This document shows, one piece after another, positions 14,193-54,057 of a stretch of DNA of 54,057 bases. The notes under the pieces are model-generated. The model worked only from the letters and a program-made list of their open reading frames with translations, made no database searches and had not been told where the DNA came from. Within the stretch, counting starts at the first letter, position 1. Each line of letters begins with the position of its first letter. This stretch comes from a virus, in IMG/VR virus record IMGVR_UViG_3300048930_000256, positions 1-54,057 of that record; one strand, 5' to 3'. The translations under genes were made by a program, and so were the position numbers.

Positions 14193-14870
14193 CTAGTCTT
14201 GTGCTGGAACTGTCACGAATCCGCATGTTCCTTCAAGAGTCTCAGTGATAGAGTCATCGAAGAACTCCATGTAGTGAGACTGTGTACCAGCAGGAACAGT
14301 AGCGAAATCGTAAGGGCTGTCGTTGAAAGGACCGTCTGCCCAGTTAGCAATCTCGGCTGGTGATGTTCGCCCTTCAAACTTGACGATTCGGAATGGGTCT
14401 TCCTTCTCATCTGTTGGAAGCTTGAATCGAACTTTTGGCAATACGATTCGGCGATACTTATGGTCAGCTTCGCAGCTTTCATCAGGTACAGTCTCGAACA
14501 GCTCAACGCTAATCCAAGGAAGGCAGTTGAGTCCTTCTACTTGATACCAACCGATGTTCTCAGAACCGTTGTTGATGAGCGTCTGGCCAGTAAGAAGATT
14601 GGTCAGCTCATAGTCTGGGTTGAGAAGTTCAAACTCAATGTTGATGTCTTTGAGTTCATCACACTTCTTGGTTTGCCAGCACTTCTTGCCGCCCTCGTTT
14701 TTCAGTACGGTTTCATCTCCGTCCTCAATGTTCTTTGTCATTACAACATTGCGGAAGCAGTTGAAGATGTATCCGTTGGTTGCTCCTGCAAGTGGAGCGT
14801 CAGAACATTCATCGACAAGCGCAATACGAATTGCGTCAATGTGTCCTGCTGGCAAACATACCTGTGTCAT
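14193..14870 (-). CDS. Probable major tail protein
   Basis: This 225-residue protein has the size and beta-rich character of a tail tube subunit, with strand-like segments (DINIEFELLNPDYELTNLLT, RFKLPTDEKEDPFRIVKFEG). An ATG follows AGGGGGA. It has its own promoter-like element (14900-14923), shared with the capsid gene, as expected for a protein made in many copies. Eight cysteines are present. The assignment comes from size, composition and the shared promoter. An alternative is another abundant head or tail protein. Confidence 0.65.
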   Translation of the reverse strand: MTQVCLPAGHIDAIRIALVDECSDAPLAGATNGYIFNCFRNVVMTKNIEDGDETVLKNEGGKKCWQTKKCDELKDINIEFELLNPDYELTNLLTGQTLINNGSENIGWYQVEGLNCLPWISVELFETVPDESCEADHKYRRIVLPKVRFKLPTDEKEDPFRIVKFEGRTSPAEIANWADGPFNDSPYDFATVPAGTQSHYMEFFDDSITETLEGTCGFVTVPAQD

Positions 14871-14899
14871 TATCTTTCCCCCTAGAAAGCATATTTGGC

Positions 14900-14923
14900 T
14901 TCATTCAGAGTATAGCCGTGAAT
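14900..14923 (-). promoter_or_regulatory. Putative late promoter, copy 2
   Basis: On the minus strand this reads ATTC-N5-TATACTCTGAA-T-GAA. It matches the element at 19118-19141 in 19 of 24 positions and ends 29 bp before the next start codon, against 32 bp for the other. TATACT could be a -10 box. No TTGACA-like -35 is present at 16-18 bp, so a non-host sigma factor may be used. Confidence 0.6.
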
Positions 14924-14929
14924 GATGGG

Positions 14930-15277
14930 CTACTCTGCTGCGTCGCCCTCTTGCTCCGCCTCTTCTTTACTAACCTCTTTTACCGAGAGGACTTTAGATG
15001 TTCCGAGTGGCAATATAAGATGCTCAGAGCCGACAGAAAATGTTTCTGTGCCACCAGTTGTCTCAACCTCATACTTATGTCCGGCAGCTAGGACAAGGAT
15101 TTCCCTGCCGCCATGCTTGATAACATCGCTCGCAGCCCCCGTAAGCTTCTTGGCAGAACCTTTCGGCGTGTAGCCAATAGACTTGTCCTTGCCACCAGCA
15201 GAGAAACTGGTATTCATATTACCTTTGCCCGGGATAACGACGTGAGCGCCTCCCTTGTAAAATCCAAGAACTTTCAT
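14930..15277 (-). CDS. Head-module protein, unknown function
   Basis: This is a 115-residue protein with a glycine-rich N-terminal half (GGAHVVIPGKGN), a probable small beta domain in the middle (REILVLAAGHKYEVETTGG) and an acidic C-terminus. It lies in the head module after a fibre-like gene and a small gene. A capsid decoration or spike role is possible but nothing proves it. Confidence 0.7.
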   Translation of the reverse strand: MKVLGFYKGGAHVVIPGKGNMNTSFSAGGKDKSIGYTPKGSAKKLTGAASDVIKHGGREILVLAAGHKYEVETTGGTETFSVGSEHLILPLGTSKVLSVKEVSKEEAEQEGDAAE

Positions 15278-15278
15278 G

Positions 15279-15494
15279 CTACTCCTGTCCTAGTATGGTT
15301 TCGCCGATGCTTCGAGCGCTGTAGCCAGTTCTATGTGCAAATAGCCTAGGAACGGGCACAACCACTACATGATGCCCCTCATTGGCATTAGCGTGGATTT
15401 CCTTTGTCGCTTCTGCTACAGCAGCATCTCTTTGCCGCATAGCAACCTCGCCACATTGAGCGCACAGCGTATCGTAAAAAGCTATTTGAGACAT
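15279..15494 (-). CDS. Small late protein, unknown function
   Basis: The ATG at 15492-15494 overlaps the TAA of the preceding gene as TAATG and has GGAGGG four bases upstream, so I prefer it to a TTG 15 bases earlier. The 71-residue product has a CAQC motif near the N-terminus and a GHHVVVVPVPRLF segment. No family is recognised. Confidence 0.65.
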   Translation of the reverse strand: MSQIAFYDTLCAQCGEVAMRQRDAAVAEATKEIHANANEGHHVVVVPVPRLFAHRTGYSARSIGETILGQE

Positions 15495-17474: not shown

Positions 17475-19085
17475 TTAGCAAGCTTCTGGCTCTACGAGAG
17501 CTGTTGAGCCGCCAGTACCAGCGCCTGTGAGTTCGAGTGTGAAGCTCGGCACTTCTGGAACCATCTTCTCAAGGAACTCATGTCCTTCAAGGAAGTATTG
17601 CACTTGGTTCTGGAGAGTAAGAGCCGCGTCACGCTGGAAGCCAGCCTCAACAAGAACGCTCTCGCCTCGTGTGTACGCATTGACAGGAACGATGTTAAGC
17701 GTCCATGTGCCGATTGCGGTACAAGGGTCGAAGGCTACAGTGCTGCCCGGGTCTACATAGAGACCAGCAGCGGCAAGATAGTCAGCTTCTGCGGTGACAT
17801 CGGCATCCATTGCCTGTACGATTTGACCAACGCCAAGCTCTCGGAGCTGTGCTTCGATTGCAGCGCGGTTAGCGCCACGAGAGAAGCCGCGTCGATGTTC
17901 GTCAGCGATAAGCGCTTCCATCATTCCGGGAGGAAGGATGAGAGCGTAGTCGCCCCAGTTGATGCGGGTGCCGTAGCCTGCAACAGCCACAAGATGACCG
18001 AGTACAGCTTCAAGCTGGTTAAGCAGGCCAACGCCGTTGCCAAGGCCATAGGTAAGAACCGTGCTGTCTGCGCGAAGCGTGTTGAGCAGTTCTTGCTCTG
18101 CGGTTCGTGCGTACACGATTCCAAGCTTTGTGATGAAGTCATCAATAAGCTCTGGATGGCTGATTTGCTGGAAGATAGAATGGCGACCAGCAGCAACGAT
18201 TGCGTATGGGTCTACCTGTGTTGGCTCTTGGCAGGTAAGGTCTACATACGGCTTCCATGTTGATGGCGTGTCAGCTTCAACAGCAGCTTGGTCTACACAC
18301 GTCCACTTGGTCACGCCGGCAGCTACGTCTGCGAGCGCAAGGCCCTTGACATAGTTGAATGGACCTTGTACTGGAACAGCGCGGAAGAGGCTGGCAACAG
18401 GGCGAGCATCTTCACCAACAGAGCGAATTGTCTTGTCAGTCTCGAACGGGCCGCAATAACAAGCTGCTTGGATTGGCGATGCAAGAACAGCACCTTTCTC
18501 TGCTGCCTGCGACATGATGATTGTGTTCTCAATCGCGCTGTTGCGACCAGATACAATCTTCTGCCCAGCAATCTCTCGGTTGATGTTAGCGAATGAATAC
18601 CGCCCATCACCACTCTTAGAAGCTAGTCGGTGAACTCGCTCCCAGTCAGAGACTTCCATCTTCGAGCCGACGCTCATTCCGTAAGACGAGCTGGAAGCAA
18701 TGATTGTCAATGCTGGACCTTCGCCACCGCCATCGAGGTTCTGCTTTTTTGGTGCAGCGCTCTGCACGGCAGCAGCAATCGCCTCTGGCTCTGGGGTTTC
18801 GGCTGGTGCCTCTTCCTTAGCTGGCTCTTCAGCAGGAGCTTCAACTTCAGCAGGAGCTTCCACTTCTTCAGCGGGAGCCTCTTCTTCAGCAGCCTTTGGA
18901 GCTTCTGGAGCTTCAGCGGTCAGCTCTGCTACGAGCTTTGCGTCTTCAATCTTTGCTTCGAGTGCGATGCGCTCATCTCGAAGTGCGCGAAGCTCTGCTC
19001 GCCCATCTTCATCGATAACGTCTAGCTTGGCGATTTCACCAGCTCGCGCTCGGATTTCTTCCATTCGTTTTAGTAGCTCTTCCAC
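17475..19085 (-). CDS. Major capsid protein, HK97-type with scaffold-like N-terminus
   Basis: 536 residues from a GTG with GGGGAG upstream. Residues about 1-50 form a coiled coil like an HK97 delta domain, followed by an Ala/Glu/Pro-rich linker (about 55-115) and a capsid domain (about 130-520) with ASLFRAVPVQGPFNYVKG and ILPPGMMEALIADEHRR. Such N-terminal parts guide prohead assembly and are usually removed by the protease encoded upstream. A promoter-like element lies 32 bp before the start. Six cysteines are present. Confidence 0.93.
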   Translation of the reverse strand: MEELLKRMEEIRARAGEIAKLDVIDEDGRAELRALRDERIALEAKIEDAKLVAELTAEAPEAPKAAEEEAPAEEVEAPAEVEAPAEEPAKEEAPAETPEPEAIAAAVQSAAPKKQNLDGGGEGPALTIIASSSSYGMSVGSKMEVSDWERVHRLASKSGDGRYSFANINREIAGQKIVSGRNSAIENTIIMSQAAEKGAVLASPIQAACYCGPFETDKTIRSVGEDARPVASLFRAVPVQGPFNYVKGLALADVAAGVTKWTCVDQAAVEADTPSTWKPYVDLTCQEPTQVDPYAIVAAGRHSIFQQISHPELIDDFITKLGIVYARTAEQELLNTLRADSTVLTYGLGNGVGLLNQLEAVLGHLVAVAGYGTRINWGDYALILPPGMMEALIADEHRRGFSRGANRAAIEAQLRELGVGQIVQAMDADVTAEADYLAAAGLYVDPGSTVAFDPCTAIGTWTLNIVPVNAYTRGESVLVEAGFQRDAALTLQNQVQYFLEGHEFLEKMVPEVPSFTLELTGAGTGGSTALVEPEAC

Positions 19086-19117: not shown

Positions 19118-19141
19118 TTCGTTCAGAGTATAAGCACGAAT
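19118..19141 (-). promoter_or_regulatory. Putative late promoter, copy 1
   Basis: This lies in a 72-bp gap before the capsid gene. On the minus strand it reads ATTC-N5-TATACTCTGAA-C-GAA and is nearly identical to 14900-14923. The conserved core is TATACTCTGAA, and both copies keep ATTC five bases before TATACT and GAA at the end. This sharing suggests an independent promoter for the most abundant virion proteins. Confidence 0.6.
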
Positions 19142-20411: not shown

Positions 20412-20511
20412 AGAATAACCAAAGGGGGAAGCCAGCAGCAGCTCCCCCCTTGTGGCACCCTAGGTTGGTACGTGCCCCCCCAGACACAGGCATACTATAG
20501 CAGATGCCCTT

Positions 20512-21858: not shown

Positions 21859-21929
21859 AGGCGATGACGGGACTCGAACCCATGTTGCAGGTTTTGCAGA
21901 CCTGTGCCTAGCCGCTCGGCCACATCGCC
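21859..21929 (-). tRNA. tRNA-Cys (anticodon GCA)
   Basis: Read on the minus strand: acceptor GGCGATG pairs perfectly with CATCGCC; D-arm GCC-GAGCGGCTA-GGC; anticodon arm CAGGT-CTGCAAA-ACCTG with anticodon GCA; T-arm ATGGG-TTCGAGT-CCCGT. The next base is T, matching the U73 discriminator of cysteine tRNAs. No CCA is encoded. It is the only tRNA I see and stands at the head of the late transcription unit, just upstream of the portal gene. Confidence 0.95.
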
Positions 21930-21940
21930 ATGCCCCTAGT

Positions 21941-21968
21941 ATAAACGAAAGCCCCCATCACTGGGGGC
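21941..21968 (-). terminator. Intrinsic terminator before the late unit
   Basis: On the minus strand GCCCCC-AGTGAT-GGGGGC is a 6-bp GC stem followed by TTTCGTTT. It would end transcripts from the 22047-22979 gene. A TATACT box lies just after it, 10 bases before the tRNA, and could serve a tRNA/portal promoter, though it lacks the full late element seen elsewhere. Confidence 0.75.
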
Positions 21969-22046
21969 AATCGCCTATCACGTAAACATCCTCTTCACCA
22001 CCAATCACTATAGCTTACGTGGCGCGAGATGCAACTCATTCGCATA

Positions 22047-23208: not shown

Positions 23209-23565
23209 TGCAACATACTACACTAAGTCTTCTTCTGGGGGAAGTGTCTGGCCGTAGGAATTGGCCTGAAAAATTTTTCGGGGTGTCCTGTTTTACACGC
23301 GAAATATAATGAACCCTATAATGATATATCTCATGATATCTACTAGCATAATACCTATCATGATATACAAAATATATAATTAAGCATCATAATATATAAT
23401 TAAGCATTATAGTTCATAGACAATATCATGACCTATTAATTAAAAAAAGATATCATGATAGTAGTTTATCTAAAGCATTATAGTTCTTATTCAATTCATT
23501 ACCCAATAAATTAAATAACTATCATGATAGTAGTTTATCTAAAGCATTATAATTCATTATAGGCT
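23209..23565. promoter_or_regulatory. AT-rich control region with palindromes and TATAAT boxes
   Basis: This 357-bp region has no credible gene. It contains exact TATCATGATA palindromes at 23356-23365, 23451-23460 and 23520-23529, degenerate half-sites near 23331 and 23424, and CTATAATG or its complement at 23316-23323, 23405-23412, 23476-23483 and 23555-23562. In the two long repeats a TATAAT or near-TATAAT box on the minus strand sits about 16 bp before each palindrome. It could be a promoter/operator array or a replication origin. Confidence 0.75.
23451..23551. repeat. Two 32-bp direct repeats, 69 bp apart
   Basis: The identical copies are 23451-23482 and 23520-23551. Each starts with TATCATGATA and ends with AAGCATTATA. 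A shorter relative of the right end (AAGCATTATAGTTC) is also at 23403-23416. Such spacing fits iterons or paired operators. Confidence 0.9.
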
Positions 23566-42023: not shown

Positions 42024-42673
42024 ATGTAATGCAAGCGCAATGGTGGATACAAGGCGGAATCACGCATGGATTCATCTATGATGTTAGGCACAATGGGAAA
42101 GAAGGTGAAGTGGCAAGCGTTGGTGGGGAAGTTATTCTTGATGACATCTACCAGCTATCATCATATCCCAAAGGGTGTAGGTGGGTAGACGCCGGCTGTC
42201 ACGCTGGTGTATTCTCTATAGCAGCAATTCAGGCTGGGCACACAGTTGCATCTGCAATCGACGTAGACTTAGATTGGTGCTTTGCATACTCATACACCAT
42301 AAATACTTTTATGAGCCAAATGGCTGCTCGGGGAATGGCTGCCTATAGTCAGGAGATAGACCCGAAAAACGAGATGCTTTTCTCGGCAGAGCAAATAATC
42401 TCGATAGCACTAGAAGATGTTAAGGGAATTCAGCATGACAGCAACGCGCTTAAACTGGATATACAGGGAGCCGAGTCATCTATACTCTCGGCACATGGAT
42501 GTAAACTTCTTGCAGACTATTTCAAATACATGGTTTTTGAATGGCATCACATAGACGACCAGAGTTATGCCGACACGCTAGAAAATAACGGCTGGTCAAT
42601 AGCATCTGTATCAAAACACACAGACACCTTAATGGGCATTGACACGCAGATTGTTAGCGCTGAAAGAAGGTAG
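42020..42673 (+). CDS. FkbM-like methyltransferase
   Basis: 217 residues. WVDAGCHAGVFSIAA (about 55-69) is a SAM-binding motif I pattern and LKLDIQGAESSIL (about 144-156) is the FkbM family signature. FkbM enzymes usually methylate sugars or small molecules, so the target here is unknown. It forms a coupled pair with the adenine methyltransferase. Confidence 0.8.
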   Translation: MNVMQAQWWIQGGITHGFIYDVRHNGKEGEVASVGGEVILDDIYQLSSYPKGCRWVDAGCHAGVFSIAAIQAGHTVASAIDVDLDWCFAYSYTINTFMSQMAARGMAAYSQEIDPKNEMLFSAEQIISIALEDVKGIQHDSNALKLDIQGAESSILSAHGCKLLADYFKYMVFEWHHIDDQSYADTLENNGWSIASVSKHTDTLMGIDTQIVSAERR

Positions 42674-42977: not shown

Positions 42978-43280
42978 ATGGTACGGGATATGAACGACAG
43001 CGGCAAGATACCAGAAGAATGGTATCCACATATAACAGAGGCAATCAGTAGGTCTACTGGCCTAAAGCCAACTGGAGGGAACCAAGTGAAAGAGCCTAGC
43101 GATATACCAACAATGGCTTTGCTTAATGTAATAGGCGAGCATGAAATGAAAATAGAGAAGCTGGAAAGTCGCGTTTCGATTATTTCGTTTAGAGCGAATT
43201 TTGCCTACGGGATATTCGTAGTAATCATTATGCTGCTTGTTGTTTCTCAGATATTAAACTTGGTGGAGGCTTGGCTGTAG
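42978..43280 (+). CDS. Membrane-anchored protein, unknown function
   Basis: 100 residues from the ATG at 42978; a longer frame from 42906 would read through the hairpin. A helical polar part is followed by a single hydrophobic segment (FVVIIMLLVVSQIL) near the C-terminus. It overlaps the sigma factor gene by 10 bp, so a membrane-linked regulator of the sigma factor is possible but unproven. Confidence 0.6.
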   Translation: MVRDMNDSGKIPEEWYPHITEAISRSTGLKPTGGNQVKEPSDIPTMALLNVIGEHEMKIEKLESRVSIISFRANFAYGIFVVIIMLLVVSQILNLVEAWL

Positions 43281-43999
43281 CGCATACCCCAGACGACGCG
43301 CAGCAGTACAGGAAAATACTTCAAGGCGATACCAAGGCTAGAGATAGGATGGTTGAAAAGCATCTTGGTCTAGTAAAGAAAAATGTTGTCTACTATGCTA
43401 GACGCAATCCAGAGATACCACTAGACGACCTCCTGCAAGAGGGGCATATAGGTCTAGTCATGGCGCTCAACAAGTTCGATGTAGACAAGGGGTACAGGTT
43501 TTCTACATACGCATCATTCTGGATTAAGCAAAGGATACAGCGGTTCGTTGTATTCAGCCATCCAAAGTCAGCTACAGCTAAACGCAAGGACATAGAAGAC
43601 TTCATCAATGGAAGAATGAGCGAAGAGCTGAAGCCGCTCTATAGCAATCGGTGCGGCTCATACTCGCCAATAGACTCGCCTGTGAGTAGGTCTGGAGAAA
43701 GTGGACTAGACTCAAACAAGGCAAGCAGTATAGCTGAAATGGCTTACGATGCCTGTCAGATGGAAGTGTCAGAGCTTGTAGAGGACAAGGATGAATGGAG
43801 GCACATGCGCTCCGTCATGATGGATGTCCTAGACCTTAGGGAGCTAACAATCATAGGTATGCGTTTCGGTGTGATGGGATGCACACAGAAAAAGATTGCA
43901 GACATAGCAGATGAGCTTGATATAACCATTGCCAGCCTAAGAAGCATTGAGGCTGTTGCTATGAAGAAGATTCGTGATGAGCTTGGAGTAGAATCATGA
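43271..43999 (+). CDS. Sigma-70-family RNA polymerase sigma factor
   Basis: 242 residues from a TTG after GGTGGAGG (short spacing). Region 2 (about 27-95) is clear: LVKKNVVYYARRNPEIPLDDLLQEG, then NKFDVDKGYRFSTYASFWIKQRIQRF. Region 4 (about 188-238) has a helix-turn-helix (TQKKIADIADELDITIASLRSIE). It should redirect host RNA polymerase to phage promoters. It lies before the endonuclease and terminase genes. The 24-bp element before the capsid and tail tube genes is the best target candidate. Confidence 0.9.
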   Translation: MAVAHTPDDAQQYRKILQGDTKARDRMVEKHLGLVKKNVVYYARRNPEIPLDDLLQEGHIGLVMALNKFDVDKGYRFSTYASFWIKQRIQRFVVFSHPKSATAKRKDIEDFINGRMSEELKPLYSNRCGSYSPIDSPVSRSGESGLDSNKASSIAEMAYDACQMEVSELVEDKDEWRHMRSVMMDVLDLRELTIIGMRFGVMGCTQKKIADIADELDITIASLRSIEAVAMKKIRDELGVES

Positions 44000-45036: not shown

Positions 45037-45560
45037 GCGAAGAGATAATCCACACAAAACAGACGCCATCATATAGCCGTAGGCCAGATGAGCCAGCGTC
45101 AGACTACGAGGCTTTTGTTGAGTGGTGCAGGATTCCACCATCAAGCAGGTCTACTGGAAACTTCTGTAGGCGAACAGGGTTCCCGCAGAAGGCTGTGAAA
45201 AGGATGCGTGAGAAGTGGCAATGGGATGCTAGGGCGGCAGCGTTCGACGCTGATAGCGTAGCCCTGCGGCCAGACCCTGCATCGATGGAAGAAGAGGCGG
45301 CGCTCGCCGGACAGATTGCTGCTGCAACCACGCTTATCGAGCTTGGCCTACGCTCTATCGAGCTGAAGAACCCATCGCTCATATCGGCAGACAAGGCGCT
45401 AAAGCTTGTAGAGAAGGGCGTGGAGATTCAGCGCAAGGCGCTCGGTCAGGCAGATGTCAATATAGAATTCTCCTCTGGCGACCTAAGCAGGGTGAACAAG
45501 CTTATAGAAGACCTAAACATAGAAGACGCAGAACTGGTAGACGAGGAGCTTGAAGAATAA
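45033..45560 (+). CDS. Terminase small subunit
   Basis: 175 residues. FCRRTGFPQKAVKRMREKWQWDARAAAFDAD (about 48-78) is the helix-turn-helix and Trp-containing pattern of small terminases, followed by a long helix (EEEAALAGQIAAATTLIELG) for oligomerisation and an acidic C-terminus. It recognises phage DNA for packaging. Its last bases overlap the start of the large subunit. Confidence 0.8.
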   Translation: MSEEIIHTKQTPSYSRRPDEPASDYEAFVEWCRIPPSSRSTGNFCRRTGFPQKAVKRMREKWQWDARAAAFDADSVALRPDPASMEEEAALAGQIAAATTLIELGLRSIELKNPSLISADKALKLVEKGVEIQRKALGQADVNIEFSSGDLSRVNKLIEDLNIEDAELVDEELEE

Positions 45561-47973
45561 GATAACAGCAGCCCAGTATGCAAAGCTGAGTGCTGCGGAG
45601 CGCTTGGCATTTTGTGGTGCGCTTGCAAGGAAGAGATGGGAGAAGCTTAGAAGGCCAGAACAAGTTCCGGGTATGTATCACCAAGATACATGGGTCACTC
45701 ACCTAACAATGGCTGGGAGAGGGTTCGGGAAAGAGCTTGCGCTTGATACGCCCATACTAACTGCAAATCGCGGCTGGATAACCATGGGTGATATTGAGGT
45801 TGGAGATGTTGTCTTCGACGAGTCTGGCGCTGAGTGTAATGTGACATTCGTTAGCGAGCCTACAAATGCCAAGCCGATGTTCCGACTCAACTTCTCGGAT
45901 GGCTCCAGCCTAGTAGCTTCAGACACGCATGAATGGCTAACGTCCAGCGCGTTAGAGCGTAAGGCTTCCAGAAGAAATGGCGGCGAGCTGAGGGCTACTG
46001 TTAGAGAAACTATTGAGCTGTATGCAACGCAAAAGCATGGGAGCAGGGGCGACACAAATCATTCCATACAGCTCTGCAAGCCAATTGTGTTCTCTCAAAT
46101 ACAGGAGTTAAAGGTAGACCCATACATGCTAGGCGTTTGGCTCGGTGATGGCGCCAGTAAGGAGAGGGTTTTACACCTCTCCAACAGGGATGAGTCATAC
46201 ATAGTATCTGGTATTGATTGCATAGAGAATGGCTTTAGAAAGCAATACAATGGATATGCCAAATATAGGATAGAGATGGATACATGGCAGGCGATGCGGT
46301 CGCATGGCCTTTCTGGGAACAAGCATATACCTCGCCAGTTTATGTCTGCTACTGTTGCCGAGCGAAAGTCTCTCCTTGCTGGGATTATAGACACCGATGG
46401 AACAATCAGCACTAAATCCGCCTGTGAAATAACACTTTGCAATGAGAGGCTTGCGCATGATGTTCACGAGCTTATCATCGGGCTTGGCATAAAGGCTGTT
46501 ATCAAGAAAAGCGCGGCGACGCTAAACGGGAAGACTGTTGGCGACAGGTGGAGGATAACATTCACCATCTATACAGGACACGAGATACCAGTTCGCTCAT
46601 CATTCAAGGCTGGAAGAATTAAGCCGGCTGGTAAGCAATCCACTCGGCAGGCGCACAGAATGATACGAAGTGTTGTGAGAACAGCCAATGTCCCATGTAG
46701 GTGTATTAGCGTAGATTCTCCATCAAGACTGTATCTTGCCGGCAGGCACCTTATTCCAACGCATAACACCCGTGCAGGCGCGGAATGGATTTTGAATGAG
46801 TGTATAAGTATGCCCGGAACTATGGCAGGCATACTAGCTCCAACATACGACCACGGCATAAAGGTCTGCTTATTCGGAGAGAGCGGCGTTATGTCACTAC
46901 TGGCTGACCACTCGACAGTAAAGTGGAATGAGTATAAGAAGCAGCTCACTTTTGCGAATGGAAGTATGATAACGCTCTACTCTTCAGAGCATCAGAAGAA
47001 CCTTGCAGGACCGCAGTTCCACAGGTTCTGGATTGATGAGCCGGCAGACCTAGCGCACGGCATGAGAGCATGGAAGAAGCTTAGGCCGGCGGTCAGACTA
47101 CCCACGATAGACGGCTCGCCGGCACGAATCCTCATCACGGGTACGCCGGCACCAGTCCCGCTTGTGCAGCATATCTGGGAGCTTACACAGAAGAACCCAG
47201 AGATTTACACGCTGTCTAATGGTCGCACGATGGATAACGAGGCCAACCTCGACCCAATGATGGTTCAGGAATTGTATGAGCGATACAAGGGCAGCAGATA
47301 CTTCCTTCAGGAGATGGAGGGGCAGCTACTCTTGCAAGCTGACGGCGCCCTATGGACATCGCAGGTTATACATGGGAACACGATACCGTATGACAAGGCG
47401 ATGCACTTCGATGAAGTTGTTGTTTCAATCGACCCAGCGGTATCAACTGAGAAACATGCTGACGAGACTGGCATCATCGTTGCTGGTATATCCGAGAAGA
47501 ATTGCTACATACTTGCAGACTATTCAGTTAAGGCCAGTGCCTTAGATTGGATTCGCAAGGCGTACTCCATAGCGCAAAAGCATGGCGCAAGAAAGATACT
47601 CTATGAGCGCAACCTAGCCGGGCCTATGATAGAGGACGTATTCAAGAAGGTTTTGCAAGAACACAACTCAAAGATTAAGCTAGTAAAGGTGCAGGCTAGG
47701 AAGTCTAAGGGTGTTAGGGCGGAACCTATTGCTGCGCTGTATGAGGCGGGTAGGGTGTTCCATGTGAGTGACACTCCAGACTCATGGGGGTCACTTGAAA
47801 AGCTAGAGTCGCAGATGACTACGTGGGAGCCTAAAGACTCTAAAAGCCCAGACAGGATAGACGCTCTTGTTCACGCCGTAAACTACCTTCTGGTCAAAGG
47901 AGCTGGAGGAGCTAGGGTCTACACGTCGAAGGACATCAAGACGAACATAACGATGACTGGCTGGAATAAGTGA
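45550..47973 (+). CDS. Terminase large subunit interrupted by an intein
   Basis: 807 codons from a TTG overlapping the small subunit by 11 bp. The host protein is split: AGRGFGK (55-61) and T407 RAGAEW join to a Walker A motif, then FWIDEP (493-498) is the Walker B region, TGTPAP is motif III, and a nuclease domain has VVVSIDPA (623-630), DETG and a final DRIDALVHAV (768-777). An in-frame intein (62-406) lies within the P-loop. After removal the mature terminase is about 462 residues. It powers DNA packaging and cuts the genome. Confidence 0.93.
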   Translation: MKNKITAAQYAKLSAAERLAFCGALARKRWEKLRRPEQVPGMYHQDTWVTHLTMAGRGFGKELALDTPILTANRGWITMGDIEVGDVVFDESGAECNVTFVSEPTNAKPMFRLNFSDGSSLVASDTHEWLTSSALERKASRRNGGELRATVRETIELYATQKHGSRGDTNHSIQLCKPIVFSQIQELKVDPYMLGVWLGDGASKERVLHLSNRDESYIVSGIDCIENGFRKQYNGYAKYRIEMDTWQAMRSHGLSGNKHIPRQFMSATVAERKSLLAGIIDTDGTISTKSACEITLCNERLAHDVHELIIGLGIKAVIKKSAATLNGKTVGDRWRITFTIYTGHEIPVRSSFKAGRIKPAGKQSTRQAHRMIRSVVRTANVPCRCISVDSPSRLYLAGRHLIPTHNTRAGAEWILNECISMPGTMAGILAPTYDHGIKVCLFGESGVMSLLADHSTVKWNEYKKQLTFANGSMITLYSSEHQKNLAGPQFHRFWIDEPADLAHGMRAWKKLRPAVRLPTIDGSPARILITGTPAPVPLVQHIWELTQKNPEIYTLSNGRTMDNEANLDPMMVQELYERYKGSRYFLQEMEGQLLLQADGALWTSQVIHGNTIPYDKAMHFDEVVVSIDPAVSTEKHADETGIIVAGISEKNCYILADYSVKASALDWIRKAYSIAQKHGARKILYERNLAGPMIEDVFKKVLQEHNSKIKLVKVQARKSKGVRAEPIAALYEAGRVFHVSDTPDSWGSLEKLESQMTTWEPKDSKSPDRIDALVHAVNYLLVKGAGGARVYTSKDIKTNITMTGWNK
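45733..46767 (+). other. Intein with LAGLIDADG endonuclease in terminase P-loop
   Basis: Residues 62-406 of the terminase. It starts with Glu instead of Cys or Ser (ELALDTPIL), ends in LIPTHN, and the next extein residue is Thr. The three residues diagnostic of class 3 inteins appear: W129 in DTHEW (block B), C385 in CRCISVD (block F) and T404 in PTHN (block G). The middle has the DOD/LAGLIDADG pair LGVWLGDG (194-201) and LAGIIDTDGT (276-285), so a homing endonuclease is present and both acidic residues are retained. Confidence 0.88.
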
Positions 47974-49112: not shown

Positions 49113-49183
49113 AGTTTTCTGGATTCGTGCCGATAATCATAATACAGGCGGAAATATACTTGTTCAAATGATAATCGGGGGTA

Positions 49184-53264: not shown

Positions 53265-54057
53265 TAGATTACTTCTCCGTTGTATGGCATGAATACTACT
53301 GTTCCGTCTACCTTAAAGCCTCGTTCGGTGAATCCGCCCGGCTGGTCTACAGTAATAAGATTGAGCGACTGGTTTGTTCCAACGTGCGATGCGATAGCAT
53401 TGAAGGACAATGTAGCGCCGCCAGCAACTTCGCCGATAATAATAGCCTCTTCCCAGCGTCGCTTATGGTGCGGGAGCCTGCTGTTTCTTTGTATGCCGCC
53501 AATATCCATAAACGTGCGGAGCGTTCCAACCCCGCCAAGTAGGTTGTTTACTGTCATCTGACAGTCAATGTGAGCGTTGAATGGTATGAACGCATTACCC
53601 TGTGTGACAGAATCTTCAGGGTTGTTATTGACATCATCAACCCACGCTCTAACAGCTCTCTGAGCAGAAGACAGGTTGTTGTCTCCTAGAATCGGGCTGA
53701 CAGAATCGTATGGAGAGATAAGGTCAAATCCAGAGCCATTACCAAAAGAGCTTCCGGGCGGCACAAAGCCGACACTGTATCCAACCCTAAATCGAGCTTT
53801 GATAATAGTAAGGCAGCGGCAAGAGTGCGGGTTTGTAATAGTGACCCCGTTTAGCGCGTTTGCACTAGCATCGCCCTCTGATGTACCCTGCGGTATATTA
53901 ATTGCATCGCCAGAATCAAAGAGCTTCCACCTAGCCCGCTTTGGGATGCTATACAGCTCACCGCCAGTAGAAAGCCCGAGCTGCTGAAAACAAGAATCTA
54001 TCGGTGTTGCTGCTGCTGGGTCGTCCCAAATCTTTGCTGCAATTCCTTGGCCGTCTA
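53264..54057 (-). CDS. Virion-associated protein, 3' part of the gene crossing the join
   Basis: This continues the frame that starts at 239; the final 127 bases repeat the start of the window. The full protein is 301 residues after closing the circle. The body is beta-rich with no recognised domain (segments SGFDLISPYDSVSP, NAHIDCQMTVNNLLGGVGTLR). Its end overlaps the tail collar gene start, so it probably takes part in the same tail structure. Confidence 0.8.
   Translation of the reverse strand, partial: DGQGIAAKIWDDPAAATPIDSCFQQLGLSTGGELYSIPKRARWKLFDSGDAINIPQGTSEGDASANALNGVTITNPHSCRCLTIIKARFRVGYSVGFVPPGSSFGNGSGFDLISPYDSVSPILGDNNLSSAQRAVRAWVDDVNNNPEDSVTQGNAFIPFNAHIDCQMTVNNLLGGVGTLRTFMDIGGIQRNSRLPHHKRRWEEAIIIGEVAGGATLSFNAIASHVGTNQSLNLITVDQPGGFTERGFKVDGTVVFMPYNGEVI
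53931..54057. repeat. Terminal direct repeat, right copy
   Basis: Identical to 1-127. Together the two copies show a circular map of 53,930 bp. Confidence 0.95.

Follow-up and report, generated by a model that had tools for sequence, protein, structure and literature searches.

The major capsid and major tail genes of the window, by which we mean the whole 54,057-nt stretch of viral DNA analysed here, are each preceded by a 24-bp promoter-like element, and the two elements probably serve as internal promoters for these two most abundant virion proteins. The initial annotation had proposed that a sigma factor encoded by the phage drives this extra transcription. The promoter half of that proposal is favoured by the position of the elements, the enrichment of -10 boxes in the late gaps and the elements present in relatives; the sigma factor as driver does not stand as firmly. 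It is a plausible reader, at about even probability, with host sigma-A as the main rival, and the joint claim, that the elements are promoters and that the phage sigma factor reads them, falls a little short of an even chance on the sequences compared.

Paired elements within the late operon

The genome (53.9 kb, G+C 49%) is actinophage-like, its portal and terminase being ~22–31% identical to those of Gordonia, Microbacterium and Streptomyces phages. Because the ends of the record are identical over 127 bp (1–127 and 53931–54057), a size that matches an assembly k-mer overlap, the genome is apparently complete and either circular or circularly permuted. Early-type genes occupy the plus strand; on the minus strand, the portal, protease, capsid, tail and tape measure genes belong to one long late operon, which spans the ends of the record. 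Where the early and late strands diverge lies an A+T-rich gap (23340–23560) in which CTATAATGCTTTAGATAAACTACTATCATGATA units recur and ATCATGAT palindromes are numerous; it may serve as an origin or control region. In the large terminase subunit gene (45550–47973), the Walker A motif is interrupted in frame by an intein (GRGFGK / ... PTHN / TRAGAEW) that contains a LAGLIDADG domain; its first residue is apparently Glu and the +1 residue Thr, and Trp, Cys and Thr stand at positions that we take to match those of class 3 inteins. A tRNA was the sole match in an Rfam search.

The major capsid protein gene (MCP; 536 aa, GTG start, 17475–19085, minus strand; PHROG major head protein, 9e-15) is preceded by the element ATTCGTGCTTATACTCTGAACGAA at 19118–19141 (minus strand, read 19141–19118; -10 TATACT at 19132–19127), and the major tail protein gene (MTP; 225 aa, 14193–14870, minus strand; PHROG major tail protein, 5e-19) by ATTCACGGCTATACTCTGAATGAA at 14900–14923 (minus strand, read 14923–14900; -10 TATACT at 14914–14909). 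These positions are exactly those given in the initial annotation. The two elements are identical at 19 of 24 positions, with an 11-nt core fully identical, and stand 32 nt (MCP) and 29 nt (MTP) from the start codon, in keeping with the earlier estimate of about 30 bp. The absence of a normal -35, also noted earlier, was borne out by inspection and by a scan at 16–18 nt spacing, neither of which found a -35 upstream of the MCP or MTP -10. Transcription is predicted to start 7 nt past TATACT, at G 19120 for MCP and G 14902 for MTP, which would give each transcript a leader of ~32–35 nt with a ribosome site.

The window has just two copies of TATACTCTGAA, in the MCP and MTP gaps, and the upstream pair of these two genes held the sole top rank among 435 pairs in a 24-nt ungapped comparison. 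A full-window search with a matrix built from both copies, suggested in the initial annotation, returned no third site above random, the third site scoring 14.7 bits against maxima of 11.5–15.6 bits in 12 Markov sequences. With the core confined to MCP and MTP and no third matrix site, the many intragenic copies that would speak against the promoters did not appear. A sequence in a gap on the plus strand (49123–49146, ATTCGTGCCGATAAT...) resembles the MCP element and was rejected as a third copy, its matrix score being at chance. That two short gaps are alike by chance alone is very improbable: there are only two copies, but against this stand the first rank of the pair and the recurrence, before MCP and MTP of relatives, of differently worded paired elements.

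Further promoter-like boxes lie on the minus strand of the late operon. The sequence GCTATAGT forms an extended -10-like box (TGCTATAGT) upstream of the head maturation protease gene (20494–20501) and a -10-like box in the gap preceding tRNA-Cys and portal (22007–22014), and a TATACT (21938–21943) follows a terminator-like hairpin 9 nt upstream of tRNA-Cys (21859–21929). The hexamers in these other late gaps are TATAGT (protease and portal) and TATACT (tRNA-Cys), and four of the eight late gaps contain a TATANT box, where shuffling predicts 0.9 (P 0.0075). Given these boxes and their enrichment, the late operon appears dotted with -10-type promoters, among which MCP and MTP look to hold an extended version common to both.

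The 24 bp could instead be an operator with the dyad TTCR-N15-YGAA, bound by a phage regulator that would control capsid and tail genes jointly. In both copies the outer four base pairs are complementary and co-vary (G-C in one, A-T in the other), and the MCP and MTP elements account for two of the six such dyads in the window. However, the remaining four are at unrelated places, three of them within genes, the conserved centre is the -10 rather than the spacer, and no common dyad was seen on inspection of the elements of two relatives, G002 and G004; we regard an operator as unlikely.

The phage sigma factor

The open reading frame at 43271–43999 (plus strand; 242 aa, TTG start, next start codon at 43349) is a sigma-70 family member by its regions 2 and 4. 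Both regions, recognized in the initial annotation, exceed the Pfam curated cut-offs (Sigma70_r2, 6.6e-13, 48.7 bits, cut-off 24; Sigma70_r4, 8.4e-6, 25.7 bits, cut-off 24.1), and a match to the PHROG sigma family (5.5e-37) covers most of its length. A role in core binding and initiation is predicted. Its closest solved relatives are RpoS and SigA; AlphaFold models of this sigma factor and that of G002 were poor, with mean pLDDT of 46 and 44.

Residues were numbered on E. coli RpoD by alignment, with the numbering checked. Region 2.4 (YRFSTYASFWIKQRIQR versus YKFSTYATWWIRQAITR in RpoD) retains Tyr425, Phe427, Tyr430, Trp434 and Gln437, with Thr440 replaced by Gln, and on this alignment the residues that read the -10 are kept. 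The substitutions Q437H and T440I in sigma-70 are known suppressors of a T-to-C change at -12 (PMC2613000). Region 4.2 reads ITIASLRSIEA where RpoD has VTRERIRQIEA, and therefore Arg584 and Glu585 are replaced. In sigma-70 these two residues touch the -35 box at -31 and -33 (PMC2613000), and by the same alignment the -35-contact residues of the window sigma factor are gone.

The two elements would be -10-only promoters within the long minus-strand late operon, from which the MCP and MTP genes would obtain transcripts of their own, added to upstream read-through. The likeliest reader would be the host core RNA polymerase with the phage sigma factor, in which the helix for recognition of a TATA-like -10 appears retained and the -35-reading residues lost. 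We infer transcription start at the elements, binding of the phage sigma factor and extra late transcription as the output.

Elements and sigma factors in relatives

No relatives emerged when MCP, sigma or portal served as a single query sequence. A terminase alignment search retrieved L013 and a trimmed capsid alignment search retrieved G002, G003 and G004; an MTP alignment search returned the same phages and nothing further, and no relative was found in the bacterial genomes searched. The first capsid scan was marred by a low-complexity pattern, and two distant contigs were obtained. When viral contigs were scanned with a 23-bp motif, six matches were rejected as chance, with no common gene order. 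G002 is a 57-kb contig with near kin L013 and L098, and G004 a 39.6-kb fragment, both uncultured. Capsid identity to the window is ~44–48% for the G002 group and ~35% for G004, and the window and L013 homologues are 44% (MCP) and 40% (MTP) identical. Genes in the gap analyses were predicted with a home-made caller, so the gap borders are approximate.

The MCP and MTP gaps of G002 have GTGGCGGCATAATACnnAGCGA in common, the best among 780 pairs, and GGCATAATA, taken from these two genes, predicted three more sites. The contig holds eight copies of GGCATMATA against 0.7 expected on both strands, a count that is partly post hoc in that the C variant was included only after inspection. All eight are on the late strand and at gene junctions, two overlapping the last few codons of the preceding gene, and several come immediately after terminator-like hairpins. 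Two GGCATCATA sites of G002 (L104–L106), at 42173 and 50586, end 6–7 nt upstream of the ATG of the protease and tape measure genes, which would imply leaderless transcripts. G004 has TATAATGT exactly twice, upstream of MCP and of the second only of its tandem MTP genes (14660–15340 and 16398–17069 in L099), and its MCP/MTP pair was joint first at 24 nt and unremarkable at 16 nt. An element whose position is kept at MCP and MTP and whose sequence changes among relatives is the pattern expected of functional promoters with changing readers.

Among isolated actinophages, no sigma gene was detectable in Zipp, Dexdert, TurkishDelight or Clawz. The first three have the leader element GCTGGYTnnGGGCCG upstream of both MCP and MTP, and Zipp and Dexdert have TACAGT/TACACT boxes upstream. 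Clawz has this leader element only upstream of the capsid-region gene 44, and GGTGACGCCCCC...TTACAGT is common to its MCP and MTP gaps. The gaps of FuzzBuster, whose tail gene is a guess, showed no comparable signal. In the stretches read from the four isolated actinophages, GCTGGYTnnGGGCCG lies upstream of major capsid or major tail genes only (9584 and 12979 in L119; 9130 and 12554 in L123; 7938, 13517 and 13556 in L122; 6046 in L121); it is possibly a short hairpin and has no Rfam match. Since actinophages without a detectable sigma gene have paired MCP/MTP signals, such pairs need no phage sigma factor.

Reading by the phage sigma factor is suggested because the MCP/MTP pair is unique in the window and relatives have differently worded shared elements at the same genes, and the residue pattern in two phages fits the link drawn in the initial annotation. 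The link is weakened by the paired signals of the sigma-less actinophages and of G004, whose elements are consensus TATAATGT and whose incomplete 39.6-kb fragment yielded no sigma when searched. It is weakened also because the extended element has only two copies and is absent from the other late-operon genes, whose gaps hold generic boxes, whereas a dedicated late-sigma regime predicts wider use. It is possible, at a probability somewhat under one half, that the elements are real internal promoters read by host sigma-A and that the phage sigma factor serves middle genes or host take-over. As -10 boxes, TATACT, TATAGT and TATAATGT are unexceptional, the sigma-less actinophages have promoter-like boxes and common sequence before MCP and MTP, and two distant contigs without a sigma match (L093 and L094) have promoter-like boxes upstream of MCP. 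Host sigma-A nevertheless leaves unexplained the 24 bp common to MCP and MTP beyond the -10, as well as the C at -12 in the eight G002 sites, which makes a poor sigma-A box. Should the reader be host sigma-A, separate MCP and MTP signals are still a recurrent actinophage design.

The G002 sigma factor is divergent (240 aa; PHROG 1.6e-9, Pfam matches under cut-off). Its region 4.2 reads ANAAKD versus RERIRQ in RpoD, with the -35-contact residues gone, and both phages have a sigma factor without Arg584/Glu585 and promoters without a -35. Gln437 and Thr440 are both absent from the G002 protein under either alignment of region 2.4, at an overall identity of only 19–20%. With CATMAT taken as the -10, all eight G002 sites have C at -12; the window elements have T at -12 and a sigma factor with Gln437 retained. 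As this pattern comes from two phages and an alignment at such low identity, it is a lead, not proof.

Tentatively, and with more doubt than for any single reader above, the relatives may form an uncultured actinophage family in which every member pairs a sigma factor of its own with a -10-only late promoter peculiar to it, the two having drifted together, with the capsid and tail genes as constant targets. The window sigma factor with Gln437 would then read T at -12, the G002 sigma factor without Gln437 and Thr440 would read C, and region 4 would have lost -35 reading in both. If true, this would be a natural series of phage sigma factors and promoters in which recognition shifted and the target genes remained the same, opening sigma-promoter co-evolution to direct test and offering a possible source of orthogonal -10-only promoters for actinobacteria. 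This possible drift between relatives is the part that deserves specialist attention.

Comparison with known phage systems

The concept has precedents in T4, in phiEco32 and 7-11, and in Microbacterium phages of clusters EC and EI. The EC/EI phages Quhwah, KaiHaiDragon and MementoMori are annotated with a sigma factor and repeat an intergenic motif 21–30 bp before start codons, with sigma binding left open by the authors (PMC7302621, PMC9224216). Like the window, they are actinophages that combine an RNA polymerase sigma factor with an intergenic motif, but theirs, TAGaCTATaGGTgTaAgC, is 18 bp long and sits chiefly at non-structural genes. The core CTATAGGTGTAAGC of that motif has no copy in the window, which is also without the TAGaCTATaGGTgTaAgC repeat. 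KaiHaiDragon differs further in that its annotated sigma gene is just 234 bp and its major tail gene has nearly no upstream gap.

In phiEco32 and 7-11, a sigma factor distantly related to sigma-A is accompanied by the 9-bp motif tAATGTAtA before phage genes, discovered, as here, through pairwise alignment of intergenic regions (PMC4331800). That motif is common to many genes and experimentally confirmed, whereas the motif of the window is putative and at two genes. T4 gp55 is a promoter-recognition factor at late promoters without an upstream or -35 element (PMC2988020), and the window resembles T4 in having probable late promoters without a -35 and a putative phage recognition factor. The T4 late polymerase, however, has no sigma-4-equivalent domain and works with gp33 and the sliding clamp, while the window sigma factor has region 4. 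Measured against systems of the T4 gp55 and phiEco32 type, the window has its own phage-encoded sigma factor; where one motif before many late genes is expected, it has two extended copies and G002 eight junction copies; and where a motif unlike the host -10 is expected, TATACT is compatible with host sigma-A, CATMAT of G002 less so.
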